DNA of 64,000 nt, taken from contig NZ_MKKX01000017.1 of assembly GCF_002091985.1 (NCBI RefSeq), positions 248,001 to 312,000 on the forward strand. Direction: 5' to 3'. Position numbers and translations under genes: made by a program. Each line of letters opens with the position of its first letter. Within the stretch, counting starts at the first letter, position 1. Below the pieces are notes generated by a model. That model was given only the letters and a program-made list of their open reading frames with translations. It was not told the origin of the DNA and searched no databases. This document shows positions 4,891 through 37,982 of the stretch, piece by piece. This DNA comes from Rhodococcus sp. 1163 (GTDB lineage Bacteria; Actinomycetota; Actinomycetes; Mycobacteriales; Mycobacteriaceae).

Positions 4891-5203
4891 GGGTGCGAGC
4901 CTGCAGTGAATTGCGCTCGGAGAAAACAGCGTTCATGCCGAATGGGGATAACTCGCAACGTGTGGACGAGATCGTGTACATCCGTACCAAATTCACGCAT
5001 TCCCCTACAACGAGGACGACCCTCGCCAGGGGGGAGGAGGCGAGGGTCGTCGAGTTCAGCCCCGGGGGGTCGGGCTGAACTTGCCCGGACGAATCCGGAC
5101 AGGTCGATACTACACCTGGCGATGACGGTGTTTGCAAGTTCAACATTCACTCTTACTCAGTGAGACAAACCGGGAAATAGCCGAAAAAAACGAACACTCT
5201 ATT
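4891..5203. ncRNA. Structured intergenic region; candidate Ms1/MTS2823-like 6S-type RNA
   Basis: The gap between divergent ssd and the HAD gene is about 313 bases. In mycobacteria this position encodes Ms1 (MTS2823, ncRv13661), about 300 nt, which binds core RNA polymerase. Hairpins seen: 5015-5027 with 5039-5051 (13 perfect pairs), 5054-5062 with 5072-5080 (9 pairs), 5085-5089 with 5094-5098, and a long-range 8-base pairing of 5077-5084 with 5134-5141. Strand is unsettled. Synteny predicts plus. On the minus strand TTGCAA (5137-5132) and TAGTAT (5112-5107) form a promoter-like pair, though with a long 19-nt spacer, so part could instead be the tad operon leader. Confidence 0.45.
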
Positions 5204-6046: not shown

Positions 6047-6423
6047 CGCACCCCTTGCTGTGAGCGCCGTCACGGGGTACAAAGGACTTACGGAAGAACG
6101 GAAGGCCAAGATCGAACCGGAAGAGAAGGTTCCCTCTCCCAACCGTGATTCCCAGCACGGACACCAGGCACCCACGCTGAGCTCGCCGCTGACATGGCAA
6201 AAGCGCTGTGGGTCTGCGAGATTCGGGATGTAGCAGCAAGAACCCTGCACCGGTTGCAGGGATGACCTCCTACCTCACCGGACCATCGCCGAGGCCATGC
6301 GATCCTAGCGATCGTGACAGCCCACCAATGCACGCTTGGTAACCCGGCAGTCCGTGCTAACGGGCGGCGAAGTCGACTCAGTCGGCGGCGCCGCCCTTTT
6401 GATGTACCGACACAGCCAGGTGG
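6047..6423. other. Intergenic stretch with no recognisable gene
   Basis: About 377 bases between the HAD gene and the convergent Fic-like gene. Short inverted repeats are visible: GTGACG near 6042 with CGTCAC near 6068 just after the HAD stop, and CCCTGCA with TTGCAGGG near 6242-6260. Either could act in termination. Open frames here have no start signal or family resemblance, and I see no tRNA or insertion sequence. Confidence 0.5.
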
Positions 6424-7179: not shown

Positions 7180-7240
7180 GATAGGCGACGGTACCCCCTC
7201 GCAGGCTGGAGCAGACTCGCCGGACTGCCCCAGCCGATCG

Positions 7241-8941
7241 CTATACGCCGAGCTGAACCGATCCGCCGGGAATGGCGGCCAGCAGTCGCTGTGTGTACTC
7301 CTGCTGCGGGTTGTCGAACACCTCGTCGGTCGTGGCCGCCTCGACGATCTCTCCTGATCGCATGACCAGCACGTCATCGGCGATCTGCCGCACCACGGCA
7401 AGATCGTGCGTGATGAAGAGGTAGGTCAGACCGAGCTCTGCCTGCAGATCGTTCAGCAAGGACAGAATCTGCGCCTGCACGAGAACGTCGAGAGCCGAGA
7501 CTGCCTCGTCGCAGATCACCATCTCCGGCGAGAGAGCCAGAGCGCGCGCAATGGCTACGCGTTGACGCTGGCCGCCGGAAAGCTCGTTCGGGAATCGGCG
7601 CATGACCGAAGTCGGCAACGCCACCTTGTCCAACAGGTCACGGACCCGAGCCTCACGTTCCTTCTTGCTGCCGACCTTGTGGGTCCGCAGCGGCTCCTCG
7701 ATAGTGCGGTAGATCGAGTACATCGGATCCAGCGACCCATAGGGGTTCTGGAAGATCGGCTGTACACGACGCCGGAACGCGAAGGCATCCTTGCGATCCA
7801 GCGCCCCTACGTCCTGCCCGTCGAACTTGACTGTGCCAGTTGTCGGTTCGAGGAGACCCAGCACCATTTGCGCAACAGTCGACTTGCCCGAACCCGACTC
7901 ACCGACTATCGCAGTGGTCGTTCCGCGCTGCACTTCGAACGAAACATCTTTCACTGCAATGAAGTCCGTCGACTTCCACGGTGCTCCGCCGCGGATCTTG
8001 AATGCTTTCGTGAGCCCTTCAGCCACCACCACATTTTCGGTGACGTTTTCGGTATGCGAATCGTCCTGCTGCTCAGCCAACTCGAAGGCGTGTTCGGTCG
8101 CACTGTCCTTGACCTTTGCACGTGCCTTCACCGATTCGAGCCGGCGCGATGCCAGAGACGGCGCTGACGCCACCAGACGTTGCGTGTACTCGTGCTGCGG
8201 ATTTTGCAGAATCTGCCGTGCGGGACCGGATTCGACAACGTTGCCCCGATACATCACGACGAGATGCTCGGCACGCTCGGCGGCCAACCCCAGGTCATGG
8301 GTGATGAGCAGAACCGCAGTGCCGAGTTCCTTCGTCAGCCCCTCGAGATGATCCAGGATCTGACGCTGCACGGTCACATCCAATGCCGATGTCGGCTCGT
8401 CCGCTATCAGTAGTTTCGGTCGACAAGAAAGCCCGATCGCGATAAGCGCACGCTGACGCATGCCACCGGAGAACTCGTGTGGATACTGATTCACACGCTT
8501 GTCGGACTCCGTCATCCCGGCCTCGTCGAGCAGTTCGATCGCCCGCTTCTTTGCCGCCTTACCTTTGGCTATACCATTGGCCGCCAAAGTTTCTTCGATC
8601 TGAAAGCCGATCTTCCACAGCGGGTTCAGGTTCGACATCGGGTCCTGCGGGATCAGTCCGATCTGATCGCCGCGAAGCGCTACGATCTCCTTTTTCGACG
8701 CCTTGGTGACGTCGAGACCGTCGAACAGAATCTCGCCGCCGGTCACGCGACCGGTGCCTGGCAGGAGGTCGATGATGGCATGAGCCGTCGTGGACTTTCC
8801 GGAGCCGGATTCACCTACGATTGCGACAGTCTGTCCGGGGTACACAGCCAGACTCACGCCCTTGACAGCGGGAACCATCCCGAACTTGGATTTGAATCCG
8901 ACCTGCAGATTCTTGATTTCGAGCAGCGGCTCTTCGGTCAT
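7241..8941 (-). CDS. dppD: Dipeptide ABC transporter, fused double ATP-binding protein DppD
   Basis: 566 aa with two complete nucleotide-binding domains. The N-terminal half has Walker A GESGSGKSTTAHAI, signature FSGGMRQRALIAIGL and Walker B LLIADEPTSALD. The C-terminal half has [29 protein letters not shown] and VICDEAVSALD. This is the fusion of DppD and DppF seen in mycobacteria (Rv3663c). It energises import through DppB and DppC at the cytoplasmic face. The first base run overlaps the dppC stop (ATGA). Both domains keep catalytic residues; the second has DEAVSALD rather than DEPTSALD, common in such fusions. Confidence 0.95.
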   Translation of the reverse strand: MTEEPLLEIKNLQVGFKSKFGMVPAVKGVSLAVYPGQTVAIVGESGSGKSTTAHAIIDLLPGTGRVTGGEILFDGLDVTKASKKEIVALRGDQIGLIPQDPMSNLNPLWKIGFQIEETLAANGIAKGKAAKKRAIELLDEAGMTESDKRVNQYPHEFSGGMRQRALIAIGLSCRPKLLIADEPTSALDVTVQRQILDHLEGLTKELGTAVLLITHDLGLAAERAEHLVVMYRGNVVESGPARQILQNPQHEYTQRLVASAPSLASRRLESVKARAKVKDSATEHAFELAEQQDDSHTENVTENVVVAEGLTKAFKIRGGAPWKSTDFIAVKDVSFEVQRGTTTAIVGESGSGKSTVAQMVLGLLEPTTGTVKFDGQDVGALDRKDAFAFRRRVQPIFQNPYGSLDPMYSIYRTIEEPLRTHKVGSKKEREARVRDLLDKVALPTSVMRRFPNELSGGQRQRVAIARALALSPEMVICDEAVSALDVLVQAQILSLLNDLQAELGLTYLFITHDLAVVRQIADDVLVMRSGEIVEAATTDEVFDNPQQEYTQRLLAAIPGGSVQLGV

Positions 8942-9912
8942 CGTTTCCTCGCCTTCGGGTCGAGGGCATCACGTAGGGCATCGCCCATCATCATGAACGC
9001 CAGAACCGTAATCGCCAATGCCGTTGCGGGATAGAACAAAATCGGGGAACCGGAACGCAGCCGCGACTGTCCGGTGCTGATGTCGGCACCCCACGAGACG
9101 ACCGTGCCGGGCAGACCGACGCCTAGATACGACAACGTTGCTTCGAGTGTCACGAATACACCGAGCGTAATCGTCGTGGTGACGACGATCGGACCCAAAG
9201 CGTTCGGAATGACGTGCCGTAGCAAGGTTTTGAATCGACTGACGCCGAGAGCCTTCGCAGCCATCACGAAATCGTTGCCACTGATCGAGAGCACCGAACC
9301 GCGGGTAATGCGCGCGATCTGAGGCCAGCCGAATATGGCAATGATGCCGATGACGACCCAGACGTTGCGATCACGCAGGACCTGCAGCAGCACGATCGCT
9401 CCCAGGATGAGAGGGATTCCGAAGAAGATGTCCGTGACTCGCGACAGCAACGAATCGAGCCAGCCACCGTAGAAGCCGGCCAGCGCGCCGAGGGTGCCGC
9501 CGAAGAGCAACACGGCAAACGTTGCTCCAACACCCACCAAGACCGATGCACGAGCGCCGTACACGGTGCGCGCGTAGATATCGCAGCCCTGCAGATCGAA
9601 CCCGAACGGGTGCCCGCCGCTACGCGCGGCCATGCTGAAATCACCGTTGCAGTAGCGCGGATCTTGACTGGTGAACCAACCAGGGAAGACCACGACGACG
9701 AGAATGAACAGGATGAGCAAGCCCGAGATGATGAACAGTGGACTCTTGCGCAGGTTGACCCACGCGTCACGCCAGAAACCAGAAGGCGCCTCGGAGTCGT
9801 CGACGGAATCGACCACGGCGACCTCGACCTCAGTGGGTCCGGCAACGAAAGAGCCTTGCGCCGGGCGTCGAGGGCGCACGAGGTCGCCCGATGCGTCTCG
9901 CAGATCAGACAT
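8938..9912 (-). CDS. dppC: Dipeptide ABC transporter permease DppC
   Basis: 324 aa permease with a long cytoplasmic N-terminus (about 55 residues), a first helix (SPLFIISGLLILFILVVVVF) and five further membrane segments. The EAA loop reads MAAKALGVSRFKTLLRHVIPNALGP, which contacts the ATPase. The C-terminal ALRDALDPKARKR tail is typical of OppC/DppC. It overlaps dppB at the start by eight bases and dppD at the end by four, so the three are co-translated. It corresponds to Rv3664c. Confidence 0.95.
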   Translation of the reverse strand: MSDLRDASGDLVRPRRPAQGSFVAGPTEVEVAVVDSVDDSEAPSGFWRDAWVNLRKSPLFIISGLLILFILVVVVFPGWFTSQDPRYCNGDFSMAARSGGHPFGFDLQGCDIYARTVYGARASVLVGVGATFAVLLFGGTLGALAGFYGGWLDSLLSRVTDIFFGIPLILGAIVLLQVLRDRNVWVVIGIIAIFGWPQIARITRGSVLSISGNDFVMAAKALGVSRFKTLLRHVIPNALGPIVVTTTITLGVFVTLEATLSYLGVGLPGTVVSWGADISTGQSRLRSGSPILFYPATALAITVLAFMMMGDALRDALDPKARKR

Positions 9913-10831
9913 AACGAATCCTAGGGTCGAGAACGGCGTACAGAAGGTCGACGACGAGGTTCGCGACGATGTAGATGACGATCAACACCGTCACGAAGGA
10001 TACGACCGTGGGTGCCTCCTGACGAACGATGGCCTGATACAACGTGCCACCTACGCCTGGGATGTTGAAGATTCCCTCGGTAACGATTGCGCCACCCATC
10101 AGCGCACCTAGATCGGCACCGAGAAACGTGACGACCGGAATGAGCGAATTGCGTAGGACGTGAACGGTGATCACGCGGTTGCGTCCCAGCCCCTTGGCCG
10201 TAGCGGTACGAACGTGGTCAGCGGTGAGATTCTCGGCGACAGAGGAGCGCGTGAGGCGCAATGCGTACGCGAAAGAGACCAGACCGAGAACGAAAGCGGG
10301 GAGCAGGAGCTTGCCGAACGTCGCATCGCCACCGACAGTCACCGGAGCGATTCCCCATTTGATTCCGAGGAAGAACTGACCGAGAAAACCGAGGACGAAG
10401 ATCGGCACCGCAATGATGACGAGACTGACGACGAGGATGGAACCGTCGAATAAACCGCCCTTGCGAATACCGGTGATCACACCGAAGCCGATGCCGAACA
10501 CCGCCTCGACGACCAACGCCATCAATGCGAGCTTGATGGTGACCGGAAACGCTTGCGCCATGACCTCGGACACCGGTCGTCCGGAGAACGAGGTTCCGAA
10601 ATCAAGCGTGAAAATGCCCTTGAGGTACTCGAGGTACTGCACGAAGAATGGCTCGTCGAGATGATAGCGCGCGCGCAACGCGGACTCGACAGCAGGGGTG
10701 AGCGGTTTGTCACCGCCGAGAGCTGCGATGGGATCTCCAGGGAGCAGAAACAGCATCGCGTAGATGAGCAGGGTCGCTCCGATGAACACCGGGATCATCT
10801 GGAGTATCCGTCGCCCGATGTACCAGATCAT
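9905..10831 (-). CDS. dppB: Dipeptide ABC transporter permease DppB
   Basis: 308 aa. It starts MIWYIGRRILQMIPVFIGAT, the classic DppB N-terminal helix, followed by a periplasmic-side loop (PGDPIAALGGDKPLTP) and the EAA motif TATAKGLGRNRVITVHVLRNSLIPV. Six membrane helices are expected. An upstream in-frame extension was rejected since it would cross the intergenic hairpin and lacks homology. The gene follows dppA after 95 bp containing a strong hairpin. Equivalent to Rv3665c. Confidence 0.95.
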   Translation of the reverse strand: MIWYIGRRILQMIPVFIGATLLIYAMLFLLPGDPIAALGGDKPLTPAVESALRARYHLDEPFFVQYLEYLKGIFTLDFGTSFSGRPVSEVMAQAFPVTIKLALMALVVEAVFGIGFGVITGIRKGGLFDGSILVVSLVIIAVPIFVLGFLGQFFLGIKWGIAPVTVGGDATFGKLLLPAFVLGLVSFAYALRLTRSSVAENLTADHVRTATAKGLGRNRVITVHVLRNSLIPVVTFLGADLGALMGGAIVTEGIFNIPGVGGTLYQAIVRQEAPTVVSFVTVLIVIYIVANLVVDLLYAVLDPRIRYV

Positions 10832-10864
10832 CAGGTTACTTTCCGTGGGGTGCGAATGTGAAAA

Positions 10865-10906
10865 TGCGAGGTCTACCTGCTCATGGATGAGCAGGTAGAC
10901 CTCGCA
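10865..10906 (-). terminator. Long hairpin between dppA and dppB
   Basis: 20-base perfect inverted repeat (10865-10884 with 10887-10906) around a two-base centre, located in the dppA-dppB gap of the minus-strand operon. No T-tract follows. Such hairpins commonly lower readthrough or stabilise the upstream mRNA, giving more solute-binding protein than permease. That role is inferred. Confidence 0.75.
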
Positions 10907-10926
10907 TGTCAGACATGTTGGGCTAC

Positions 10927-12543
10927 TCAGCCCTTGGTGATGTTCTCGTAGTCCGGCAAGCCGTTCCACGTGATCGCTGCGTCGGACACTGCCGTCGAGT
11001 GACCGGCAGCGGCGATGTAGTCCCACATCGGGATGACCGGCAGATCGCGGAGCAACATTTCTTGCGCCTCGTTTGTCAGCTTGTAGGACTCATCCACGTC
11101 CGTTGCGGCCTCGGCAGCACGCAGGGCGGCGTCGAACTCGGGATTCGCGTAGTCGGTGTCGTTCGCACCTGCACCCGTGACGAAGATCGGCTCGAGGAAC
11201 TCGAGCAGCGATGGGTAGTCACCCTGCCAGCCGGTCCGGAATGCGGTGGTGATGGTCCGGTCGGTGATCTGTGTACGGATCTGGGCGAACGTCGGCTGCG
11301 GTGCGCCGATGGCGTCGATGCCGAGGGTGTTGCGGATGCTGTTGGTCACCGCGTCGATCCACTCCTGGTGGCCGCCGTCCGAGTTGTAGGCGATGGCAAA
11401 CTGACCGCTCCACGGGGCGATGGCATCGGCCTTCGCCCACAACTGCTTTGCCTTTTCCTGGTTGTAGCTCAAGACGTCGTTCCCGGGGATCGAAGAGTCA
11501 TAGCCCGGCAGGGAGCTCGCCGTGAAGTCCTTCAGTGGTTCGCGGGTTCCCTGGAAAATCTGCTCGGTGATCTGATCGCGGTTGACGGCCATCGAGATCG
11601 CCTGGCGGCGCAGAACACCTTCCTCGCCACCGAAGTGAGCCAGCCTGAGGGGGATCGCGACGGTCTGGTTCTGCGCAGTCGGTGCATTGATCGCCCGATC
11701 GCCCAGATCCTGCTCGTACGTGGGCAATGCACTCGACGGGATGGTGTCGAGAACGTCGAGGTTGTCGCCCTGCAGATCTGCATAGGCGGTGTCCAGCGAA
11801 CTGTAGAAGACAATGCCGAGTCCATCGTTCTTCGGCACCCGGTTGCCGTCGTAGTCGGTGTTCGGAACGAGGTCGAGCCGGACGTTGTGCTGCCACGCAC
11901 CGTCGCTGGCGAACTTGTACGGTCCGTTGCCGATGGGGTTCTCGCCGAATGCCTTCATGTCGGCGAACGCTGCCTCGGGCAGCGGGTAGAACGGGGTGAA
12001 CGCCAGACGCGTCTCGAAATCGATGGTCGGTGCCTTGAGCTGGACCGTGAATTCACTGTCGCTGACAACCTTCAGACCCGACATGGTCTGTGCAGACGGG
12101 TTCTCGACGGAAACCTCGTCGTAGCCCAGGATCGGCTCGAAGAACGAACCCTGCAACTGAGCATTACTTGACAGTGCGCCGTAGTTCCACGCATCGACGA
12201 ACGACTTTGCCGTAACCGGCGTGCCGTCCGTGAACGTCCAGTCGGGCTTGATCTTGATGTCGTAATTGAGGTTGTCCGTCGTATCGATGGACTCGGCAAC
12301 CTCGTTCGTCGACTTGCCTTCGGCGTCGTACGACTTCAGCCCGGCGAACAGACGATCGACGATTCGGCCGCCGCCGTTCTCGTTCGTGTTGGTCGGAATC
12401 AGCGGGTTCTGCGGCTCCGAGCCGTTCACCGTGACGACACTGTCAGAACCACCGCCGCCGTCGGATCCGCTACTGCACGCAGTGATCATGGACAACCCGA
12501 GAACCGACGCTACAGCGACGGTTGCTATGCGTTTGACACGCAA
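10927..12543 (-). CDS. dppA: Dipeptide-binding lipoprotein DppA (ABC solute-binding family 5)
   Basis: 538 aa. A lipoprotein signal peptide (VKRIATVAVASVLGLSMITAC) ends in lipobox ITAC with the lipidated Cys near residue 24. A Ser/Gly-rich linker leads into a family 5 binding domain (GGRIVDRLFAGLKSYDAEG, TDDNLNYDIKIKPDWTFTDG). I chose TTG 12543 because an AGGAGGG ribosome site lies 5 bases upstream and the signal peptide begins there. Longer readings lack both. It binds short peptides, and possibly haem by analogy with mycobacterial Dpp, at the outer membrane face. Divergent from acs. Confidence 0.92.
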   Translation of the reverse strand: MRVKRIATVAVASVLGLSMITACSSGSDGGGGSDSVVTVNGSEPQNPLIPTNTNENGGGRIVDRLFAGLKSYDAEGKSTNEVAESIDTTDNLNYDIKIKPDWTFTDGTPVTAKSFVDAWNYGALSSNAQLQGSFFEPILGYDEVSVENPSAQTMSGLKVVSDSEFTVQLKAPTIDFETRLAFTPFYPLPEAAFADMKAFGENPIGNGPYKFASDGAWQHNVRLDLVPNTDYDGNRVPKNDGLGIVFYSSLDTAYADLQGDNLDVLDTIPSSALPTYEQDLGDRAINAPTAQNQTVAIPLRLAHFGGEEGVLRRQAISMAVNRDQITEQIFQGTREPLKDFTASSLPGYDSSIPGNDVLSYNQEKAKQLWAKADAIAPWSGQFAIAYNSDGGHQEWIDAVTNSIRNTLGIDAIGAPQPTFAQIRTQITDRTITTAFRTGWQGDYPSLLEFLEPIFVTGAGANDTDYANPEFDAALRAAEAATDVDESYKLTNEAQEMLLRDLPVIPMWDYIAAAGHSTAVSDAAITWNGLPDYENITKG

Positions 12544-12816
12544 GATAACCCTCCATCTAGGTGTGACCACAGGTTTACTGTGGTCCGTCCTCCGGGCGCA
12601 ACGCCCCGGGGGATTCATGGGCGGCGACCGCAAGCCGCGACATTGTGCGCCGAGGCAACGATCTCAATAACGAGGACTCTAGACACACCCTGAAACGAAC
12701 CTGTGAACTCCCCCAGAAAAAGCAGACGCTCGACTGCGTGTGCAACATGTTCGAAACGATTCGGCAACTGAATTCCCACGAGGTGAGAGCGATCTCCCGC
12801 CAACCACTCCGATCAT

Positions 12817-12840
12817 GCGGTGGGCGGTACCGCCCACCGC
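12817..12840. promoter_or_regulatory. 24-bp perfect palindrome in the dppA-acs divergent region
   Basis: Two 12-base arms meet without a spacer, each GCGGTGGGCGGT on its own strand. It lies in the 483-base gap between divergent dppA and acs, about 190 bases before acs. It could be an operator for an unknown regulator or a hairpin in the dppA leader. The rest of the gap shows no gene. Confidence 0.5.
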
Positions 12841-12907
12841 TCGAAACCTACCGATCACCGCAGATCAGAGGGTTGCAGGTGGATGCAACGATGCGACAGC
12901 GCTCACA

Positions 12908-12923
12908 TGTGACTACCCTCACA
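12908..12923. promoter_or_regulatory. GlxR/CRP binding site upstream of acs
   Basis: TGTGA-CTACCC-TCACA is a perfect match to the actinobacterial CRP/GlxR consensus TGTGA-N6-TCACA. It is centred about 111 bases before the acs start. A weak promoter-like pair, TTGAGC near 12953 and TAAGTA near 12974, lies downstream. GlxR control of acetate genes is known in corynebacteria, and the regulator itself is encoded at 22058-22732. Confidence 0.8.
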
Positions 12924-13026
12924 GGGGCTCGCGCGGAGGCTGCAGAGCGACTGTTGAGCTCGTTCGTGATGGCATAAGTAGCTGCCCGAGCGCGAAGAGA
13001 ACCACGACGAAAGAGAGCCATTCGAG

Positions 13027-14973
13027 ATGACGATCAGTACCTCCGGTGACCACGACACTGCCGCCGAGGAGACCTACCCGCCGTCTGCAGAATTCGCCGC
13101 GCAGGCGAACGCCACAGCAGATCTCTACGACGCCGCCGCCAAGGACCGCCTCGCATTTTGGGCCGAGCAGGCACGTCGACTGCACTGGCACACCCCGTTC
13201 ACCGAGGTGCTCGACTGGTCCGACGCGCCCGTCGCCAAATGGTTCGCCGACGGAGAGCTCAACGTCGCCTACAACTGCGTCGACCGCCACGTCCTCGACG
13301 GCCACGGCGAGCAGGTTGCGATTCACTGGGAGGGCGAACCCGGTGACAGCCGCGACCTCACCTACGCCGACCTTCTCGCGGAGGTCAGTCAGGCGGCCAA
13401 CACCCTGACCGACCTCGGACTGGTCTCCGGCGACCGCGTCGCCATCTACATGCCGATGGTCCCCGAAGCCATCATCTCGATCCTCGCCTGCGCACGCCTG
13501 GGCCTGATGCATTCCGTCGTCTTCGCCGGCTACTCCGCCACGGCACTGCGTTCACGCATCGACGACGCCGAAGCCAAACTCGTCATCACCACGGACGGGC
13601 AGTGGCGACGCGGTAAGCCCGCGCCGATCAAGGACACCGTCGACACCGCCGTCGACGGCGCGAAATCAGTCGAACACGTATTGGTCGTCAAGCGAACCGA
13701 CTCCGAGGTCGCCTGGACCGAAGGACGCGACATCTGGTGGCACGAGAGCGTCGCTGAGGCATCGAAAGAGCATGAGGCTCAGCCGTTCCCGGCCGAGCAC
13801 CCACTGTTCATTCTCTACACCTCCGGCACGACCGGTAAGCCGAAGGGCATCGTGCACACTTCCGGCGGCTACCTGACTCAGACCTCGTACACGCACCACA
13901 ATGTGTTCGACCACAAGCCAGGCAAGGATGTCTATTGGTGCACCGCCGACGTCGGTTGGGTCACCGGCCACTCGTACATCGTCTACGGTCCGCTCTCGAA
14001 CCGCGCGACGCAGGTCGTGTACGAGGGAACACCGAATTCCCCTGACGAGCACCGGCATTGGAACGTCATCGAGAAGTACAAGGTGTCGATCTATTACACC
14101 TCGCCCACCCTCGTGCGCACATTCATGAAGTGGGGCAAGGAGATTCCCGAGGCCCACGATCTGACGTCGATCCGGCTGCTCGGCTCCGTCGGCGAACCGA
14201 TCAACCCGGAGGCGTGGCGTTGGTTCCGCGACGTCGTCGGTGGTGGAACGGCACCCATCGTCGACACCTGGTGGCAGACCGAAACCGGCGCGATCATGAT
14301 TTCGCCGTTGCCCGGCGTGACGTCGACCAAGCCCGGTTCGGCGATGGCTCCGCTTCCGGGGATCTCCGCCAAGATCGTCGACGACGACGCAAAGCCACTG
14401 GGCAAGGGCGGAAACGGATATCTGATCCTCGACGAGCCGTGGCCGGCGATGCTCCGCGGCATCTGGGGTGACATGGAGCGATACAAGGACACGTACTGGT
14501 CCCGTTACGCCGAAGAAGGTTGGTACTTCGCGGGCGACGGCGCCAAGTACGACGAGGACGGCGCACTATGGGTCCTCGGACGCGTCGACGACGTCATGAA
14601 CGTCTCCGGCCACCGGATCTCCACCTCCGAGGTGGAATCAGCGCTCGTGAGCCATCACGGTGTCGCCGAGGCTGCAGTCGTCGGTGCCGCCGACGAGACC
14701 ACAGGTCAAGGCATCGTCGCGTTCGTGATCCTACGCGCAGGAATCGAGAATACCGGTGACGAACTGATCGCGGAGCTCAAAGCTCAGGTGTCGAAAGAGA
14801 TTTCACCGATAGCTCGCCCTCGCGAGATCTCGATCGTTCCCGAACTCCCGAAGACTCGCTCCGGCAAGATCATGCGACGCCTGCTGCGTGATGTCGCCGA
14901 GGGCCGCGAACTCGGTGACGTATCGACTCTCGTCGATCCGAAGGTCTTCGATTCGATCAAGAAGGGTCGCTAG
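13027..14973 (+). CDS. acs: Acetyl-CoA synthetase
   Basis: 648 aa AMP-forming ligase making acetyl-CoA from acetate, ATP and CoA. The adenylate-forming core is YTSGTTGKPKGIVHTSGG. VDTWWQTETGAIM is the A5 motif, and YFAGDGAKYDEDG leads into the hinge. The C-terminal RSGKIMRRLLRD carries the Lys that lysine acetylases modify to switch off Acs. Length equals the bacterial norm. The ATG is preceded by GAGAGCCATTCGAG. A GlxR box upstream implies cAMP-dependent control, and an MFS carboxylate-type symporter gene converges from the other side. Confidence 0.97.
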   Translation: MTISTSGDHDTAAEETYPPSAEFAAQANATADLYDAAAKDRLAFWAEQARRLHWHTPFTEVLDWSDAPVAKWFADGELNVAYNCVDRHVLDGHGEQVAIHWEGEPGDSRDLTYADLLAEVSQAANTLTDLGLVSGDRVAIYMPMVPEAIISILACARLGLMHSVVFAGYSATALRSRIDDAEAKLVITTDGQWRRGKPAPIKDTVDTAVDGAKSVEHVLVVKRTDSEVAWTEGRDIWWHESVAEASKEHEAQPFPAEHPLFILYTSGTTGKPKGIVHTSGGYLTQTSYTHHNVFDHKPGKDVYWCTADVGWVTGHSYIVYGPLSNRATQVVYEGTPNSPDEHRHWNVIEKYKVSIYYTSPTLVRTFMKWGKEIPEAHDLTSIRLLGSVGEPINPEAWRWFRDVVGGGTAPIVDTWWQTETGAIMISPLPGVTSTKPGSAMAPLPGISAKIVDDDAKPLGKGGNGYLILDEPWPAMLRGIWGDMERYKDTYWSRYAEEGWYFAGDGAKYDEDGALWVLGRVDDVMNVSGHRISTSEVESALVSHHGVAEAAVVGAADETTGQGIVAFVILRAGIENTGDELIAELKAQVSKEISPIARPREISIVPELPKTRSGKIMRRLLRDVAEGRELGDVSTLVDPKVFDSIKKGR

Positions 14974-31194: not shown

Positions 31195-31270
<76 letters not shown>

Positions 31271-31284
31271 GATATAACCGCAGG

Positions 31285-32577
31285 TCAAGGCCCTACTCGG
31301 GAAACCGGGTGGGGCCTTTCTTGTGCCCCAGTCCGCAGGGCGTCCGCAGTAGGTTCGTAGAGCTTTCGAACGGCCAGGTCGAGGGCCTCGGATACAGACT
31401 CGAGGTCGTCGGGGAAGAGGTCCGCATAAGTGTCGAGCGTCATTGCCGCCGACTTGTGCCCGAGCATCAGCTGGACGGCTTTCACATTCGCGCCCGCCGA
31501 AATTGCGAGTGACGCCGCAGTGTGCCGCAGGTCGTGCGGGGTGACCCGGGGGAACTCGGGGGTCACAGCCTCGCCCGTCGTCGCACGTTCCCGTTCACGA
31601 TCACCCAGGGCCTGTAGGCCGAGCGTCGCGACCGTGGGGTTGAAAACCCGTGACCGATATGTCGACACCCGCAGGGCATCACCCATCGGAGACGTGAACA
31701 CCAGGTCGCCGCGCTCCTTCCCTACCATCAGCTCTGCCAGTCGATCGGTAAGGAACCTCGGGAACGGCACTGAGCGTCGCTCGTGAGTCTTGGGCGTCGA
31801 CCACACCAGCTGCCCGCGAACCTCCGCAACCGCACGCACAATGTTCACCCGCCGGCGAAGCATGTCGAAGTTCTCGACTCGCAGCGCGGCCATCTCACCC
31901 CAGCGAAGCCCGGTGTACGCGAGAAACAACACGACGATCGAATTCGACGCAACATCGGCGGCCAACTCGTGCACCTGCGCGTGAGTCAAGTAACCACGGT
32001 CAACATGTTCTCTGCGTGGGGCCTTCACACCTGTGCACGGGTTGCGTGCGATCTGTCGGTCCTCGACGGCAAGCTCAAGCGCCATCCGCAACGCGCCGAG
32101 GGCGTTCTCTATAGTCGCAGGTTTTGCCCCACCCTCTACTAGCTCTGCGACCCACGTGCGGACATCGGTGGTCTTGACGTCGCGCACCGCGTACCGGGAC
32201 CACCTCGGTTCGACGTGGCAGTCCCACGCACTCCGCCGTGTCGCGTCGGTCGTGGCCTTTATATGCGCTTGCGACGCAAACCACGCGATACCGAGGTCGC
32301 ATACTGTGCCCCTGCCCGCAGACGGTGCGATGTGTGCTCCTTGCACGATCGAGGACGTGACCCCGTCGAGCCACGCGGACGCGTCAACCTTCCGATCAAA
32401 TCCCCTGGCATGCTCTTTGCCCAGGTCGTCAACGTAGCGGGCTCGCCAGCGTTTGCCTTTGCCGTGGTTGGCACTCTGGACTTTGGATGCCTTCCCGTCT
32501 GGATCTCGCGTGGTCTTCGTCCATCTGTCTTCTACGCCTCCGCGCCGATTGCGGTGACCGCTAGTCATCGGCGTCAT
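31285..32577 (-). CDS. int: Tyrosine-recombinase integrase of the island
   Basis: 430 aa. An N-terminal AP2-like arm-binding region ([20 protein letters not shown]) is followed by a core-binding SAM-like domain and a catalytic domain. The catalytic Arg lies in [13 protein letters not shown], the HxxR in [15 protein letters not shown], a His in [15 protein letters not shown] and the Tyr nucleophile in that same DTY. ATG 32577 or 32568 overlaps the repressor stop, so int is coupled to it. Its C-terminal codons contain one of the two arm-type repeats (31326-31350), and its stop is 14 bases from attL. Confidence 0.95.
31326..31350 (+). repeat. Left arm-type repeat (pairs with 37798-37822)
   Basis: A 25-bp sequence repeated exactly at 37798-37822 in the same orientation. 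Internally it is two GTCCGCAG octamers three bases apart. It lies 55 bases inside attL, within the integrase C-terminal codons. In a circular form the two copies would flank the core, as lambda-type integrase arm sites do. Confidence 0.7.
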
Positions 32578-33103
32578 CCTCACCCGGAATGGATGGGCGG
32601 CTTTCAGTTCGGATGGTGTCGACGGTGAAGTCTTCGGGGAGATTCCCGTACTCAGCTCTGAGAACTTCACGCATCGTCTGGGCTACAACTTGGCTGTAGT
32701 CGGCCTGGAGGTATCCGACAGCGTTGTCCACGGCGAACTGGGCGACATCCTCGCCGGCGACGGCGAGGTCGGTAGCAAGGTTGATAAGTCCGGTTTGAAG
32801 AGTTGAGGCTGCGCGGGTCAGCTCGATTACTAGACCTTGTATCCGGGTGGTGCTGTGACTGATGGATGTTGTTGCATCCGTGTCTTTGATCCCCCTCCAT
32901 AGCACTGCGGGCAGGACGCCTAGCGCCTCAGCGAAGTTCAACGCCTCTGTCAGTTTGAGTGGGCGAGAGCCTTTTTCAACTTTGAGGATGGTCTGTTGTT
33001 GAAAGCTGTCACCTAGTTTCGTCACCGCCTCGGCTAGGTCCGCCTGGGACATCGACTTGGCAACTCGGAGTGCGGCGATGGTCCGTCCTATTTTGGCGTT
33101 CAT
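32561..33103 (-). CDS. XRE-family repressor of the island
   Basis: 180 aa. The N-terminal helix-turn-helix is IGRTIAALRVAKSMSQADLA with recognition helix QQQTILKVEKGSRPLKL. A C-terminal region of about 100 residues has no recognised family and is helical (RIQGLVIELTRAASTLQTGL; SQVVAQTMREVLRAEYGN). ATG 33103 starts the HTH; longer readings cross the operator region. Divergent from the Xis-like gene, with a 24-base inverted repeat between them, and upstream of int: the layout of a lysogeny switch that also sets integrase level. Confidence 0.85.
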   Translation of the reverse strand: MNAKIGRTIAALRVAKSMSQADLAEAVTKLGDSFQQQTILKVEKGSRPLKLTEALNFAEALGVLPAVLWRGIKDTDATTSISHSTTRIQGLVIELTRAASTLQTGLINLATDLAVAGEDVAQFAVDNAVGYLQADYSQVVAQTMREVLRAEYGNLPEDFTVDTIRTESRPSIPGEDDADD

Positions 33104-33145
33104 GTTGTCCACACATTGAGAGTATACGAAACAGTGTGATTGACC

Positions 33146-33169
33146 AACGTTAGTTTGGTGTGTAACGTT
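33146..33169. promoter_or_regulatory. Inverted-repeat operator between repressor and Xis-like gene
   Basis: AACGTTA (33146-33152), a 10-base spacer and TAACGTT (33163-33169) form a perfect inverted repeat in the divergent gap, ending 6 bases before GTG 33176. The same half-sites form the compact TAACGTTA at 36456-36463 before the second HTH gene. Inferred repressor binding site. Confidence 0.65.
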
Positions 33170-33175
33170 TGCGGT

Positions 33176-33406
33176 GTGACCAACCCACAGCAAAACAATG
33201 ACCATGCAGCGGACGTACTGAGCATCACTCAGGCATCGGTGCTGACCGGACTCCCCGTCGCGACGCTCCGTTACTACCGGCACAAGGGGATCGGGCCGGT
33301 TAGCTTCAAGCTTGGGCCGCATCGGATCGCGTATAGGAGGGGTGCTCTCGAAGCGTGGCTTTCGGCGCAAGAATCGGAAACAGCACGTGGTGACCTAGCT
33401 TCATGA
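33176..33406 (+). CDS. Excisionase-like helix-turn-helix protein
   Basis: 76 aa. The winged-helix/MerR-like DNA-binding core is LSITQASVLTGLPVATLRYY followed by RHKGIGPVSFKLGPHRIAYR and GALEAWLSA, the HTH_17/AlpA pattern of excisionases. GTG 33176 is preferred to TTG 33140 because the latter would put the operator inside the gene. It is probably the recombination directionality factor or a switch regulator. Divergent from the repressor. Confidence 0.8.
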   Translation: MTNPQQNNDHAADVLSITQASVLTGLPVATLRYYRHKGIGPVSFKLGPHRIAYRRGALEAWLSAQESETARGDLAS

Positions 33407-33429
33407 CCTCATCGGCCTGCCGGATCACG

Positions 33430-33470
33430 AAAAATAAAAAACCGGGCAAAGCCGCCAGCTTCACCCGGTT
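33430..33470 (-). terminator. Intrinsic terminator facing left, after the Xis-like gene
   Basis: Stem AACCGGG (33440-33446) with CCCGGTT (33464-33470), plus inner AAGC/GCTT pairs, is flanked on the left by the A-tract 33430-33441. On the minus strand this is a hairpin followed by a T-run. No minus-strand gene reads directly into it; it would block antisense transcription coming from under the DUF3631 gene. The plus strand has a hairpin without T-run. Confidence 0.7.
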
Positions 33471-33545
33471 ACGAAGAACTGCCTGCACTCCTCAGAGAGA
33501 AGCGGACACCCCAACACCATCGACTATGTTACATGGCAGGCGACT

Positions 33546-34913
33546 GTGACGACAACCAATCCTGAGCCGCTCCTCGACGCTTTGCTGACGTTCTACCGCA
33601 AGTACGGGGTCTACCCAACCGAGCATCATTACACCGTCCTAATCCTCTGGGCTGCACACACTTACGTGTATGAAGAGTTCGACACATCCCCTCGACTGTT
33701 CCTCGATTCCGCAGTTCCGGGGAGTGGTAAGACCCGCACCCTGGAACTGTTAGACGAGACCGCCCGTAACCCGTTGATGGCGTTTTCTGCATCGCCGGCC
33801 GCATTGATTCGGACTATCGACAAGGGTGGTCGAACCATCCTGATGGACGAGATCGACACGTTGTACAACAAGGGTGGCGGCGCTGGTTCAGAGGACGTCA
33901 CCGCCGTGGTCAATGCCGGTTACAAGAACGGTGCCCGCGTCCCGAGATGCGTCGGACAAGGGATGGACATCGACGTGGTGGAACTCGACGCGTATGCGCC
34001 TATGGCCCTGGCGGGTCTGCACTCGAATGTGCCGGAAGCTGTTCGGTCCCGAGCAATTCACTTCCGCATGAAGAAGCGCAAATCCTCCGAGGTGGTATCG
34101 CCGTTCTATCGTCGGGATGTGACCGAGGAGGCTCAGCCACTTCGTGACGGACTGGCGGAATGGCTCGAGCCGCTCCGTGAGGTAGTTCGGGCTGCGCGGC
34201 CTCGGATGCCCGTGGGCGTCGAAGATCGGGCAGCCGAAGTTTGGGAGCCGCTGTTGGTCATCGCAGACCTTGCACGCGGGGAGTGGCCAAAGCATGCGCG
34301 GGATGCGTGCAAGCACTTCGTATTCGCCAAGTCCGGGTACGCCCCTCCAATCGGCATCGACCTTCTAGTCGACATCAAGACGGTGTTCGACGGGGCCGAG
34401 AAGATGGCATCCGCCGATCTAGTGGCCGCTCTTGTAGCGATCCCTGACGCGCCGTGGAAGAACATCCGAGGATCATTTCTGGATCAGGCAGCCTTGTCCA
34501 AGCTCCTACGACCGTTCGACGTACGCCCGAAGACCATTCGCAAGCCGGACGGCGTCACAGCTAAGGGGTACGTCGTGGCCGGCGAGGGTGGTCTCAGTGA
34601 GGCGTGGGAGAGGAACCTGCGCCCGGAGGACGAGGAAGAGGAAGCCCAATCCGAGCAACTGCCCGCGCCCATACCCTCACAACCCGTAACACCCGTAACA
34701 CCCGTAACACCCCAGGTCAAAGCACTGAAAAGTGTGACGGCACCTGTTACGCCCACGAAGGGAGCAACGGCACCCGTAACGCCACCCGTCACACAAAACG
34801 TGCCTTCTACCAGCACTGTTACGGCTGTTACGGGTGTTACGCCCTCCCAGGGTAGGGGCGGGAAGAAAACGGCCAAGGCATGGCTTCTCGAAGAGGAGGC
34901 GGCAGCGTCATGA
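33546..34913 (+). CDS. Stand-alone DUF3631 AAA+ ATPase
   Basis: 455 aa. Walker A is SAVPGSGKTRTLELLDETAR and Walker B is RTILMDEIDTLYNKGGG; sensor-like residues lie in LAGLHSNVPEAVRSRAIHFR. The DUF3631 C-terminal part (GIDLLVDIKTVFDGAEKMAS; LSKLLRPFDVRPKTIR) follows. A tail of about 70 residues is rich in PVTP repeats and ends KKTAKAWLLEEEAAAS. In other phages and islands this domain is often joined to or beside a prim-pol; none is visible here. GTG 33546 has GGCAGG 5 bases upstream. Likely replication helicase or loader, inferred. Confidence 0.85.
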   Translation: MTTTNPEPLLDALLTFYRKYGVYPTEHHYTVLILWAAHTYVYEEFDTSPRLFLDSAVPGSGKTRTLELLDETARNPLMAFSASPAALIRTIDKGGRTILMDEIDTLYNKGGGAGSEDVTAVVNAGYKNGARVPRCVGQGMDIDVVELDAYAPMALAGLHSNVPEAVRSRAIHFRMKKRKSSEVVSPFYRRDVTEEAQPLRDGLAEWLEPLREVVRAARPRMPVGVEDRAAEVWEPLLVIADLARGEWPKHARDACKHFVFAKSGYAPPIGIDLLVDIKTVFDGAEKMASADLVAALVAIPDAPWKNIRGSFLDQAALSKLLRPFDVRPKTIRKPDGVTAKGYVVAGEGGLSEAWERNLRPEDEEEEAQSEQLPAPIPSQPVTPVTPVTPQVKALKSVTAPVTPTKGATAPVTPPVTQNVPSTSTVTAVTGVTPSQGRGGKKTAKAWLLEEEAAAS

Positions 34914-35191
34914 ACGTGTGCGAGAAATGCGAACTTGATCCGTGCGCCTGCCGATGGGTCGTTCAACTCGGCCGGGGTGGGCGATGGGAGTGGAGACGCG
35001 CCGAGGCGTTGAAGATGTGGGATCAGCCGTTACCTGAGATTGACGACCGACAGACCTACCACTACAGCACCTGCCCGTGCCCGCAGTGTTGGTCTCTCCG
35101 ACAGTCGACCTTTCGCGACTACCCGAACGTAATCCCTCTGCCGCTGCCACCAGACAAACCGCCTGCCGACGATGAACGGACTTCGATGTGA
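34910..35191 (+). CDS. Cys-rich small protein of the island
   Basis: 93 aa. Paired Cys clusters, CEKCELDPCAC near the start and CPCPQC near residue 65, suggest one or two zinc-binding knuckles. Between them lies a Trp/Arg-rich segment (VVQLGRGGRWEWRRAEALKM). ATG 34910 overlaps the DUF3631 stop as ATGA, so the two are co-translated. Not a family I recognise. A nucleic-acid-binding accessory to the ATPase is possible. A hairpin follows immediately. Confidence 0.65.
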   Translation: MNVCEKCELDPCACRWVVQLGRGGRWEWRRAEALKMWDQPLPEIDDRQTYHYSTCPCPQCWSLRQSTFRDYPNVIPLPLPPDKPPADDERTSM

Positions 35192-35200
35192 CACGGAAAA

Positions 35201-35225
35201 GGGGCCGGATTCTCGACCCGGCCCC
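35201..35225. terminator. Bidirectional terminator at the DUF3631 operon end
   Basis: GGGGCCGG (35201-35208) pairs with CCGGCCCC (35218-35225) over a 9-base loop. An AAAA run precedes it, giving TTTT on the minus strand. It sits between the plus-strand Cys-rich gene and the convergent 35253-35618 gene. Confidence 0.75.
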
Positions 35226-35252
35226 TACCCCCGCGGTGTTAACCGGAATGCG

Positions 35253-35618
35253 TCATTCACCCGTCATGTCACGCTCGATTCGCCCGAGAAGGCTTTCCGT
35301 CTCTGCAATCAACTGCGGCAGGTCCGCCGCACTCGCCAGAGCCAGTGCCGCAGTCGCCATGCGGCGCGATGCCTCACACGCCGGCACCGTTGATGCAATC
35401 CCCAGCATGGCCGAAACACGCTGGTGATCGGTCAGCTCCCGAAGCACCTCCCGGGCGAGATTGTCATCGGCTATGTATCCGTCCGGATCCAAGATCGCCC
35501 CGGGCCATGCCGCACTCAACCGCCCGAATCTGTGCGACTGTGCCGGCGTCATCCTCGATACGTGAAGTGGCAGAGGGCCGTCTGCGCTGAAGGCGGACAT
35601 TCTGTAATCGACGGTCAT
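35253..35618 (-). CDS. Hypothetical protein of the island, downstream of the resolvase
   Basis: 121 aa, soluble and helical in its second half (EASRRMATAALALASAADLP, QLIAETESLLGRIERDMTGE). The first half includes PLPLHVSRMTPAQSHRFGRL and AAWPGAILDPDGYIADDNLA. I recognise no family. It starts 47 bases after the resolvase gene on the same strand, so it may share its transcript, and ends at the shared terminator. Confidence 0.6.
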   Translation of the reverse strand: MTVDYRMSAFSADGPLPLHVSRMTPAQSHRFGRLSAAWPGAILDPDGYIADDNLAREVLRELTDHQRVSAMLGIASTVPACEASRRMATAALALASAADLPQLIAETESLLGRIERDMTGE

Positions 35619-35665
35619 TTCGTAGCTCTCCTGTTGGGGTTGGGTCGGGTTGCGTACTGGAGCGT

Positions 35666-36262
35666 CTACGTCGCAGCCGCTTCCGTTTCGGGGGCGCTCA
35701 GGTAGCGGTAGACAGACGCTCGCGAGATGCCGAGAGCCTTGCCGACCTCGCCTGCCGATAGGCCCTGAGCTTTCAGCTCATGTGCTCGGACGGCATCAGA
35801 GGTGGTCAGCTTCCGGGGCCGACCGGTGTGCTGGCCACGTGCTGCGGCAGCCTCACGCGCCGCAGCGGCACGCTCAGCCTTTAGGTCGACCTCCATTTGT
35901 GCCATGACTGCCATGATCGCGACGAGGGCTTCCCCAATCGGGTCGCTTGTGTCGAGCCGTCGCCCAGACTTGTCGATGATCTTGATACCGAGGCCGACAA
36001 GCTCCTTGACGGTGCCAATTACCTCGAGTGTGGAGCGTCCGAGGCGATCGAGTGCGTCGACGGCAAGTGTGTCACCGGGTCGGAGGTACTCACGGCATGA
36101 CTTCCATGCGGGCCGATCCATCGTTCGACCGCTGACCTTGTCGGAGAAAATTTTTACAGCGCCCATTTCGGCAAGCTTGTCCAACTGACGGTCCAGATTC
36201 TGGTGGCTGGTCGAGACGCGGGCGTAGCCGACGATGTGGGCGCGGGGTGCTCCGTTGGTCAT
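35666..36262 (-). CDS. Serine recombinase, resolvase/invertase family
   Basis: 198 aa. The catalytic domain begins HIVGYARVSTSHQNLDRQLD with Ser nucleophile in RVS. It continues LAVDALDRLGRST and GEALVAIMAVMAQMEVDLKA (E-helix). A GRPRKL hinge leads to a helix-turn-helix (AHELKAQGLSAGEVGKALGI and SRASVYRYL). Length is that of Tn3 resolvase or Pin/Hin invertase. It is divergent from the HTH gene at 36468; inverted repeats in the gap look like its res site. It could resolve multimers of a circular form. Confidence 0.92.
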   Translation of the reverse strand: MTNGAPRAHIVGYARVSTSHQNLDRQLDKLAEMGAVKIFSDKVSGRTMDRPAWKSCREYLRPGDTLAVDALDRLGRSTLEVIGTVKELVGLGIKIIDKSGRRLDTSDPIGEALVAIMAVMAQMEVDLKAERAAAAREAAAARGQHTGRPRKLTTSDAVRAHELKAQGLSAGEVGKALGISRASVYRYLSAPETEAAAT

Positions 36263-36269
36263 AAGTGAA

Positions 36270-36405
36270 GCGTCTCATAAGTCGGCACACTCCGCAACTA
36301 TTGAGACGCATTAATGCGACGGACTTCTGAGACAGTGCGACCAGGCGGTTCGCATGGCCTAGATGGCCTAACGACAGCCGTCTCATTGCTTTGGATATGA
36401 GACGG
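36270..36405. promoter_or_regulatory. Candidate res site: inverted GTCTCA/TGAGAC repeats beside the resolvase
   Basis: Two inverted pairs share one core: GCGTCTCA (36270-36277) with TGAGACGC (36302-36309), and CCGTCTCAT (36378-36386) with ATGAGACGG (36397-36405, 10-base spacer). A palindrome GCATTAATGC (36308-36317) and a lone TGAGACA near 36328 lie between. The 28-bp repeat has the size of a resolvase dimer site. These also overlap the resolvase promoter, so autoregulation is likely. Inferred. Confidence 0.6.
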
Positions 36406-36455
36406 AGGTCGATTGAGGTCGAATCTTGAAAACTCACCCAACAGAGAAAAACCTC

Positions 36456-36463
36456 TAACGTTA
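36456..36463. promoter_or_regulatory. Second copy of the repressor half-site palindrome
   Basis: TAACGTTA, the fused form of the AACGTTA/TAACGTT arms found at 33146-33169, lies 4 bases before ATG 36468. A repressor bound here would block the start of the HTH-17-like gene. Chance occurrence of 8 bases cannot be excluded. Confidence 0.4.
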
Positions 36464-36467
36464 TCAC

Positions 36468-36680
36468 ATGAACAAATTAGTCCAACCCCCAGACCCCCTA
36501 CTGAAGCCCGACGAGGCAGCAGCGTTCCTCCGCATCGAAGTCGCCACGCTCGTCTACTGGCGATGCCGCAAGACCGGACCCCGGTTCGTACGCATCGGAG
36601 ACGGACGAGGCGCAATCCGTTACCGCACAAGCGATCTAGTCGCATACCTCGACCAGAACTCGTCCGACAACGCCGCATAG
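36468..36680 (+). CDS. Second excisionase-like HTH protein of the island
   Basis: 70 aa. The core reads LLKPDEAAAFLRIEVATLVY followed by WRCRKTGPRFVRIGDGRGAI and RYRTSDLVAYL, the HTH_17 (AlpA/Xis) pattern. ATG 36468 lacks a ribosome site and sits next to a GTTATC box, so it may be leaderless. It is divergent from the resolvase and upstream of two unknown genes, which it may regulate. Distinct from the Xis-like protein at 33176. Confidence 0.8.
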   Translation: MNKLVQPPDPLLKPDEAAAFLRIEVATLVYWRCRKTGPRFVRIGDGRGAIRYRTSDLVAYLDQNSSDNAA

Positions 36681-36754
36681 TTTGCCGTCGAGGAAACCTT
36701 GACAACTAGACGACGTCCGACACCGAAGAACTCACCGCACAGGAGAACCCCCGA

Positions 36755-37369
36755 ATGAGCACCACTGAGCAGTCCGCAACCGAGTACTACGAATACCTCA
36801 AGGCCCGCATGGTCGACGGCGAAACCGTATCGGTGGCCGAACTGGCCGAAGCCAAAGCGGCAGCCGATCACGAAGCGCTTGTCGATGCCGGCAAGCAGAC
36901 CATCCGCGAACGCCTCGCAGCCCGCAGACTGGCCGGACAGCAGGACGACGCCAAAGCCCGCGCAGCCGATATCGTCACCGCGCACCCAATCGAAAATGTC
37001 TGTGCCGCATACGATTCAGCCCGTGATGCCGTCGACGCACTGATCGGTGCCAGTGACGACTACAACGCCGCACTGGCCGAGGCGACAACAGTCCTGACAG
37101 ACGGACGTGTGGACGAAAAAGCTGCCAGCCGTGAGCCGCTAACGTGGGCCGATCACCCGCATGGCATCCTCCAGGCCGTCTACGTCGACGGTGTCCGGCA
37201 CTCCCCGCAGAGGACCGCGGCTTGGGTCGCCCGACTGTGGGCCGACAGTGGCCGCGATCACAGCCTGACCCTCAACGGCGGTAGCTCCCTCGAAGGACTG
37301 ATCGGTGAGCATGGCCGCGATACCCGCACCCCCGGCGCCCTCCTAGAACACCTCCGAGACGCCGCGTGA
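36755..37369 (+). CDS. Hypothetical protein of the island
   Basis: 204 aa. The N-terminal two thirds is charged and helical (EYYEYLKARMVDGETVSVAE; KQTIRERLAARRLAGQQDDA; a likely coiled coil). The C-terminal part (PLTWADHPHGILQAVYVDGV; TAAWVARLWADSGRDHSLTL) looks globular. No family is recognised. ATG 36755 has AGGAG 11 bases upstream. It overlaps the next gene by four bases. Being next to attR, it is in the cargo position of such islands, so a host-related function is possible but not shown. Confidence 0.65.
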   Translation: MSTTEQSATEYYEYLKARMVDGETVSVAELAEAKAAADHEALVDAGKQTIRERLAARRLAGQQDDAKARAADIVTAHPIENVCAAYDSARDAVDALIGASDDYNAALAEATTVLTDGRVDEKAASREPLTWADHPHGILQAVYVDGVRHSPQRTAAWVARLWADSGRDHSLTLNGGSSLEGLIGEHGRDTRTPGALLEHLRDAA

Positions 37370-37629
37370 ACCCCTTCAACTGCCCGACATGCGGCCGCTT
37401 CATGGGCGATGCCTGCACCTTCTGCCCGACGACCGGGCCAGTGGGACACCGTAGCGAATTGCCGGCGTCCGGGAACATCACACCCGAGCAAGCAATGGAC
37501 GACCTTCTAGAGGGTGTTCTCGCAGCTCAGCCTGACCTTGATGCGATCGTTGCAGCCGCCGACGAAGCAACCGCCGACGTACTCGAATGGGTCGAAGGCT
37601 GGGAATCCCCAGGTCTTTCTGGGACATAG
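37366..37629 (+). CDS. Zinc-ribbon-like small protein of the island
   Basis: 87 aa. The N-terminus carries two Cys pairs: CPTCGRF and CTFC. The rest is acidic and helical (EQAMDDLLEGVLAAQPDLDA; IVAAADEATADVLEWVEGWE). GTG 37366 overlaps the preceding stop (GTGA), so the pair is co-translated. No family is recognised. The Cys pairs suggest metal binding. Confidence 0.65.
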   Translation: MNPFNCPTCGRFMGDACTFCPTTGPVGHRSELPASGNITPEQAMDDLLEGVLAAQPDLDAIVAAADEATADVLEWVEGWESPGLSGT

Positions 37630-37934
37630 AAAAAACGCCGGCCCCATGAACCTGCCCCCGTGAGCTGTGTCCGGGAGTGTTCGCGGCTCACGGTGGCACA
37701 TCAGCACCCCGTAACGCCTTCCGTCAGACAGGGGCCGTTGCGGGGTGTTGTCGTCGGTAGACGGCAATCGAGGTTCGTACCCTTGTTCGATGATGGCCCC
37801 CAGTCCGCAGGGCGTCCGCAGTGTTCTCGACTAGCCTCGTTCTCTGTCAACTCAACCGACAATCGAACCCGCTGGTAGCGGTGGTGTACTCACTCAGCAC
37901 ACGAGTGTCGTCACCAGCAAGTATGCCGTTACCT
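37630..37934. other. Right-end non-coding region of the island
   Basis: 305 bases with no gene. A hairpin at 37706-37716/37736-37746 (11 pairs, one G-T) may end the cargo operon. The right arm-type repeat lies at 37798-37822. The remainder would be one arm of attP in the circular form. Confidence 0.6.
37798..37822 (+). repeat. Right arm-type repeat (pairs with 31326-31350)
   Basis: Exact 25-bp copy of the left repeat, same orientation, with two GTCCGCAG octamers. It lies 112 bases inside attR. Probable integrase arm-binding site, by position and structure. Confidence 0.7.
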
Positions 37935-37982
37935 TTCGTTCGGGACGAAGAGGTCGTGGGTTCGAATCCCGCCACCCCGACA
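37935..37982 (+). repeat. attR, right copy of the 48-bp attachment core
   Basis: Identical to 31223-31270. It contains only the 3' part of tRNA-Pro, from the anticodon stem onward, and has no 5' half, so it is not a functional tRNA. Chromosomal sequence resumes at 37983. Confidence 0.95.

Follow-up and report, generated by a model that had tools for sequence, protein, structure and literature searches.

The repeat array in the divergent gap beside a small serine resolvase gene is most probably (probability about 0.85) the intact res site of that resolvase, which would split multimers or tandem copies of the surrounding element into single elements. The array consists of six boxes, is conserved among relatives, and is linked to the resolvase gene and often to a gene encoding a RepAM-type replication protein. 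Judged by its sequence, it appears to be an uninterrupted res site with a layout differing from both plans it was compared with, namely those of Tn3 and Sin. The original prediction had proposed a likely res site, a proposal now supported by the conserved position and layout of the array, its linkage to the resolvase gene across plasmids, and transposon insertions in its spacer.

Anatomy of the array

The window, i.e. the whole 64-kb stretch of DNA that was analysed, contains a gap that separates the resolvase start (36262) from the HTH gene (36468). Within this gap, 142 bp (36270-36411) hold five exact GTCTCA/TGAGAC boxes, compared with 0.02 expected at the density of the rest of the window. 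The arrangement GTCTCA-N12-TGAGAC is found at a single place in the window; none of 100 shuffles contained it. There are six half-sites in all. Read on the resolvase strand, they form a dyad (site I) farthest from the gene, a 46-bp spacer, three half-sites a, b and c arranged head-to-tail, and an inverted half-site d, giving the layout →← … →→→← in the direction of the resolvase. The features are as follows:

35666-36262, minus strand: small serine resolvase/invertase family recombinase, 198 aa (PF00239, E 1.4e-36; PF02796, E 1.8e-8)
36272-36283, plus strand: half-site d, inverted, outer end 9 bp upstream of the resolvase ATG (composite model fit)
36296-36307, minus strand: half-site c, GTCTCAATAGTT, head-to-tail with b at 13 bp (composite model fit)
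36309-36320, minus strand: half-site b, GTCGCATTAATG, head-to-tail with a at 13 bp (composite model fit)
36322-36333, minus strand: half-site a, GTCTCAGAAGTC (composite model fit)
36380-36403, no strand: site I, putative crossover dyad, GTCTCATTGCTTTGGATATGAGAC, with half-sites 36380-36391 and 36392-36403
36391-36392, TT on the plus and AA on the minus strand: central dinucleotide and symmetry centre of site I, presumed crossover point
36468-36680, plus strand: HTH_17 (excisionase-like) protein, divergent from the resolvase (PF12728, E 2.2e-9)

In the window, the inverted boxes of site I start 18 bp apart, the steps between a, b and c are 13 bp each, and a and d are 56 bp apart. Half-site a contains an exact box at 36328-36333, while b has one deviating base (TGCGAC, 36315-36320). 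The 10-bp core of site I, TGCTTTGGAT, is asymmetric and identical in a 66% identical relative (L003). Even when up to three mismatches are allowed, the 4.46-Mb genome has only one copy of site I; the window likewise has one. The distance from d to the ATG is 9-16 bp in relatives with the array and a printed distance, with the exception of L033 (0). A scan of the gap for promoters and terminators gave no match.

The original prediction described two inverted pairs with a palindrome between them. Their position in the divergent gap (36262 to 36468) was borne out, and both pairs exist: the 28-bp pair with its 10-bp spacer lies at 36378-36405 and has 9-bp arms, and the 40-bp pair lies at 36270-36309 and corresponds to the gene-proximal half-sites c and d. 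Half-sites a and b were missed in that description of the six. The palindrome CGCATTAATGCG is real (36307-36318), but since it is missing from L003, it is probably incidental and was set aside as a functional part.

A six-half-site model was trained on the upstream regions of 13 relatives, with the window excluded. The window scored 77.2 in this model, exactly at the array, and the four best positions on each strand all fall within 36272-36451, i.e. at the array or next to it. Across 100 first-order random 64-kb sequences, the maximum score averaged 8.2 and never exceeded 19.7. The repeats are real and far beyond chance.

Conservation, transposon insertions and alternative readings

Resolvase matches at E ≤ 1e-42 are present in 12 of the 401 genomes of the family, including the genome of origin. 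All 11 nearest relatives other than this genome carry the array. Ten of them have accessory scores of 39.7 to 60.5 (eight training members scored leave-one-out, L003 and L005 scored in the hold-out run), and the eleventh, L033, reaches 20.3; the largest value among 500 shuffled sequences is 13.7. In this relative (L033/L041; L041 7805-7870), the b-c spacer is longer and the c-d spacer shorter, making the accessory part about 10 bp longer in net terms, which is about one helical turn.

As a hold-out set, 12 further plasmid resolvases were drawn from 40 listed; five had been taken earlier, four of which were in the training set. Scoring located the best accessory array first and site I afterwards. 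The array was found in eight of the 12, with accessory scores of 29.2 to 49.8. Among these positives, site I is weak in L103-L105 (13.4 vs 12.8 as the largest null value), displaced in L098, and none was found in L101. The array is absent from the other four (L097, L099, L107, L108), also when wider stretches of the same records (L109-L111, L114) are considered. The array thus follows the resolvase gene across different plasmids and neighbourhoods.

The upstream regions of the array-less records have their own features. In L109, L110 and L111, the resolvase gene overlaps the end of a Fic or AbiEii-like gene by 4 bp, with no array within 2.5 kb. In the fourth, a tniA/B/Q transposon lies directly upstream of the gene. 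A class-level search for new relatives returned three of 394 genomes (including the genome of origin), all with loci already known. Viral contigs contained neither a resolvase relative (tblastn) nor the exact 24-bp site I. Among the 30 genus-level loci (window included), the upstream regions of 13 remote ones were inspected; several have other, TGYCA-like boxes and were left out of the array scoring.

Transposons have inserted at the array in some relatives. The array of R. ruber C1 (L055) is uninterrupted. R. aetherivorans pRaL13b (L113) has a 7485-bp insert (6381-13865) between site I and a, with a 9-bp target duplication, and R. ruber pYYL1.2 (L051) has a 4131-bp insert (1756-5886) in the same interval, with a 7-bp target duplication. 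Counted on the flanks, the insertion points differ, lying 25 (L113) and 43 (L051) bases from site I. Besides an rve/Mu-C transposase gene, the L113 insert carries genes for an AAA protein and a serine recombinase of its own and, by annotation, a cadmium gene and further IS elements. The L051 insert carries like genes by annotation. Because of this gene set, both inserts are classed as probably Tn552-like. PMC3276174 describes res sites as hotspots for Tn552 and other transposons.

A second type of trace is a tni-type terminal repeat, which was located with a test string drawn from one of the loci carrying it. In ten of the 30 genus-level loci, window included (L006, L008, L009, L010, L015, L019, L022, L026, L028, L029), its end lies 96-110 bp upstream of the matched resolvase start, always in one orientation. 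Four more of the 30 have the repeat reversed, at 273-283 bp. A tniA gene lies beside the repeat in L019 and, as a short match, in L029. We take the repeat to resemble the ends of Tn402/Tn5053; it looks as if res-targeting transposons had struck most of the group.

These observations bear on the idea that the array is only an operator, where the resolvase would bind the boxes to regulate its own gene and the divergent HTH operon without any recombination. The position of box d, ending 9 bp before the ATG, and the fact that the array fills the divergent gap agree with such a role, and the Tn3 res doubles as an operator (PMC7157771). However, an operator requires neither a dyad such as site I, whose asymmetric core is conserved in L003, nor a fixed distance between site I and the accessory boxes, and the spacer is hit by transposons whose target choice is of the res type. 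A purely regulatory function is therefore considered very improbable. Autoregulation in addition to resolution is likely, because box d is so close to the ATG.

The protein itself has both the catalytic domain (PF00239) and the HTH domain (PF02796) of a small serine resolvase, and its active-site region aligns with gamma-delta resolvase and Gin. Upstream of its gene, the putative dyad crossover site and accessory sites stand in fixed register, as in a gene-adjacent res. The nearest solved chains are Gin (1e-29) and gamma-delta resolvase (1.1e-27), and the best PHROG match is named DNA invertase. This raises the question of an inversion system of the Gin/Hin type, in which site I and a second, inverted crossover site would flank a switchable segment. 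Such a system is very improbable and was rejected: the single-copy status of site I, in the genome as in the window, leaves it without an inverted partner, and it has four accessory boxes in a fixed register next to it.

The island, its replication protein and a candidate origin

The resolvase and its presumed res site are part of a 6.7-kb island (31223-37982), which is inserted in tRNA-Pro and bounded by an exact 48-bp direct repeat. Its further features are:

31223-31270, plus strand: left 48-bp att repeat, exact direct repeat, 3' part of tRNA-Pro (31195-31269)
31285-32670, minus strand: tyrosine integrase (PF00589, E 6.9e-21)
33546-34913, plus strand: RepAM-type (DUF3631) replication protein (PF12307, E 4.1e-53)
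34685-34841, no strand: mirror-image CGTAAC/GTTACG repeats in the rep gene, four copies each way, candidate origin
37935-37982, plus strand: right 48-bp att repeat, exact direct repeat

Besides the tyrosine integrase, DUF3631 and the resolvase, Pfam recognises an XRE-like protein and two HTH_17 proteins in the island; of the ten ORFs scanned, four have no Pfam match. Two ORFs of 204 and 87 aa (36755-37629) match nothing in Pfam, PHROG, NCBIfam or PADLOC. No transposase was found among the ten ORFs (Pfam, PHROG), i.e. no tnpA stands beside the resolvase as in the Tn3 family, and the reading as a relic of a Tn3 transposon was rejected for this reason.

RepAM corresponds to PF12307 (PMC3218068), and the island combines an integrase (PF00589) with this protein (PF12307), matching the combination of integrase and RepAM/RepSA/Prim-Pol in the definition of AICEs (PMC3218068). 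A gene for FtsK/SpoIIIE is absent from the island; the five PF01580 matches in the genome all lie on contigs C37 and C38 and none on C17. The island is AICE-like but not an AICE, because it is without an FtsK/SpoIIIE gene. It shares integrase, Xis-like proteins, RepAM and a tRNA attachment site with RepAM-class AICEs such as pMEA300, and differs from them in the missing FtsK/SpoIIIE Tra gene and in carrying a resolvase/res module.

DUF3631 is encoded in six of the 12 genomes searched, and in five of these six, one copy lies at most 10 kb from the resolvase. The pair is 6 kb apart in G162, and the nearest DUF3631 is about 43 kb from the resolvase in G079. An element of R. yunnanensis (L002) has a 66% identical resolvase, the same array and an adjoining DUF3631 gene; unlike in the island, its rep-res pair travels with a large serine recombinase. 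The nearest rep relative is found in a sister island of genome G208 (L091), where DUF3631 is 87% identical, the next ORF is 81% identical and the integrase is a different one. DNA similarity between the two islands ends at the end of that ORF (window 35191), and no resolvase is present within the 16 kb fetched. The resolvase/res module is thus linked to RepAM elements, but optional, as the G208 island shows.

The integration module has a relative in R. qingshengii. pDJL3 (L032), a circular plasmid record of 15.9 kb, encodes an integrase with 60% identity and contains related regulators, Xis-like genes and a 47/48 match to the att repeat of the island. It also has phage-like genes (terminase, tape-measure, DnaB-N; by annotation or Pfam), with no annotated resolvase and no array, and looks like an excised phage-related relative. 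The earlier hint of autonomous replication gains support from the RepAM/DUF3631 gene and from this circular record of a related integration module. That the boxes bind another protein, i.e. the Xis-like HTH proteins, the integrase or RepAM, is barely credible although the array adjoins an Xis-like HTH gene: the same array precedes resolvase genes on plasmids with other neighbours and is absent from pDJL3 and the G208 island despite their related integrase and Xis-like genes and 87% identical RepAM, respectively, and Int/Xis sites and rep iterons were rejected because the boxes follow the resolvase through other neighbourhoods.

At its 3' end, the rep gene contains CGTAAC at 34685, 34694, 34703 and 34775, and GTTACG at 34746, 34818, 34827 and 34836. 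All eight copies encode Val-Thr, with GTA-ACx codons giving one orientation and GTT-ACG the other, so that synonymous codons reverse the DNA motif with the peptide unchanged. Motif and mirror order recur in G208 and G162. Other rep relatives have different 7-base motifs at the 3' end, with mirror-image repeats in L062, L063, L066, L067, L072, L078 and L079. In the 800 bp at the 3' end of rep, the commonest 7-mer has a mean of 5.7 copies (29 loci, one duplicate left out). The corresponding means, each from 27 loci, are 3.4 for the upstream flanks and 3.8 for the initial part of the gene; the 3' end differs from the flanks with p = 1e-7 (Mann-Whitney). Exactly one orientation switch occurs in eight of the 14 loci with at least six copies. 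The repeat array looks like a candidate origin. Alternatively, the repeats may merely encode a repetitive peptide, but the codon choice argues against this.

For the presumed res site, we infer binding and strand exchange, the direction in which the reaction runs, and replication of the circle, in the following scheme. A resolvase dimer would bind site I, and further subunits would fill a to d. Two directly repeated res copies on one supercoiled molecule would then form an interwound synapse via a-d, and the enzyme would cut the central dinucleotide of site I (36391-36392), splitting the molecule in two. The substrates may be integrated copies in tandem or multimers formed by the replicating circle after excision, and the products would be single elements. 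The original prediction held that a res site in an island only makes sense if the circular form multimerises. This is too strong, because the SGI1 res system also clears tandem chromosomal copies, as has been demonstrated (PMC12217951). A multimerising, replicating circle is favoured by the presence of RepAM.

In weighing the res reading, the RepAM gene of the island and the proximity of DUF3631 to the resolvase in five of six DUF3631-bearing genomes were counted in its favour. The four array-less resolvases of the 12 held out, the G208 island, the layout outside both published plans and the invertase Gin as nearest solved relative were counted against it. The presence of an intact resolution system next to a RepAM gene that contains an origin-like array points to the chromosomal "island" being a plasmid that integrates, which would explain why the resolution module is kept.

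Geometry and comparison with known res systems

Among relatives, site I occurs in two sizes, its boxes being spaced at either 18 or 21 bp. Most distances between site I and a are either 51-52 bp or 60-61 bp, a difference of about one helical turn; L039, L054 and L055 fitted less cleanly in this analysis. According to PMC12217951, phasing matters in Tn3-type sites, with site I to site II spanning 4 to 7 turns, and cleavage at the central 2 bp of site I is general for these enzymes.

Structural comparisons, in the parts of the literature available, consider two res plans. The Tn3 plan has three sites, all of them inverted pairs (PMC9943657, PMC2428073, PMC12217951), and in the Sin plan an inverted site is combined with a single head-to-tail site and a bending protein (PMC9943657, PMC2428073). 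The layout predicted in the window matches neither plan as published. No description of →← … →→→← was found in the literature searched, which consisted mostly of papers outside subscription, and it may be described elsewhere. The layout may represent a third res class, an idea to which we give slightly less than even odds. This class would extend across a clade of resolvases from actinobacterial plasmids and islands, would combine a Sin-like head-to-tail pair with a Tn3-like wide inverted pair and would be expected to form a different synaptosome; in the window, it would serve a plasmid hidden in the island, with an origin embedded in the rep gene in the form of mirror-image repeats made from synonymous codons. 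The way in which accessory-site order sets recombination topology is a matter of ongoing work. It would become testable with a third plan that is widely conserved and comes with natural spacing variants of about one helical turn and natural transposon-disrupted versions.

The system resembles Tn3/gamma-delta, with its 114-bp res, in having a small serine resolvase, a gene-adjacent res, a distal dyad site I and two accessory regions. Tn3 sites II and III are inverted pairs, whereas the accessory boxes of the window run →→→←, with a, b and c sharing one orientation, and the 46 bp from site I to a contrast with a 22-bp spacer (a figure for SGI1, PMC12217951). Sin of staphylococcal plasmids likewise has head-to-tail accessory half-sites (here a and b), a role in plasmid maintenance and Tn552 insertions in res. 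Unlike Sin, where a single head-to-tail site II and a bending protein accompany site I, the window has two more half-sites, c and d. SGI1 (PMC12217951) differs in its Tn3-like res with three boxes, its host and its replication module. It offers a parallel in location, as a resolvase and res are carried on a chromosomally integrated island, where the SGI1 system removes multimers.
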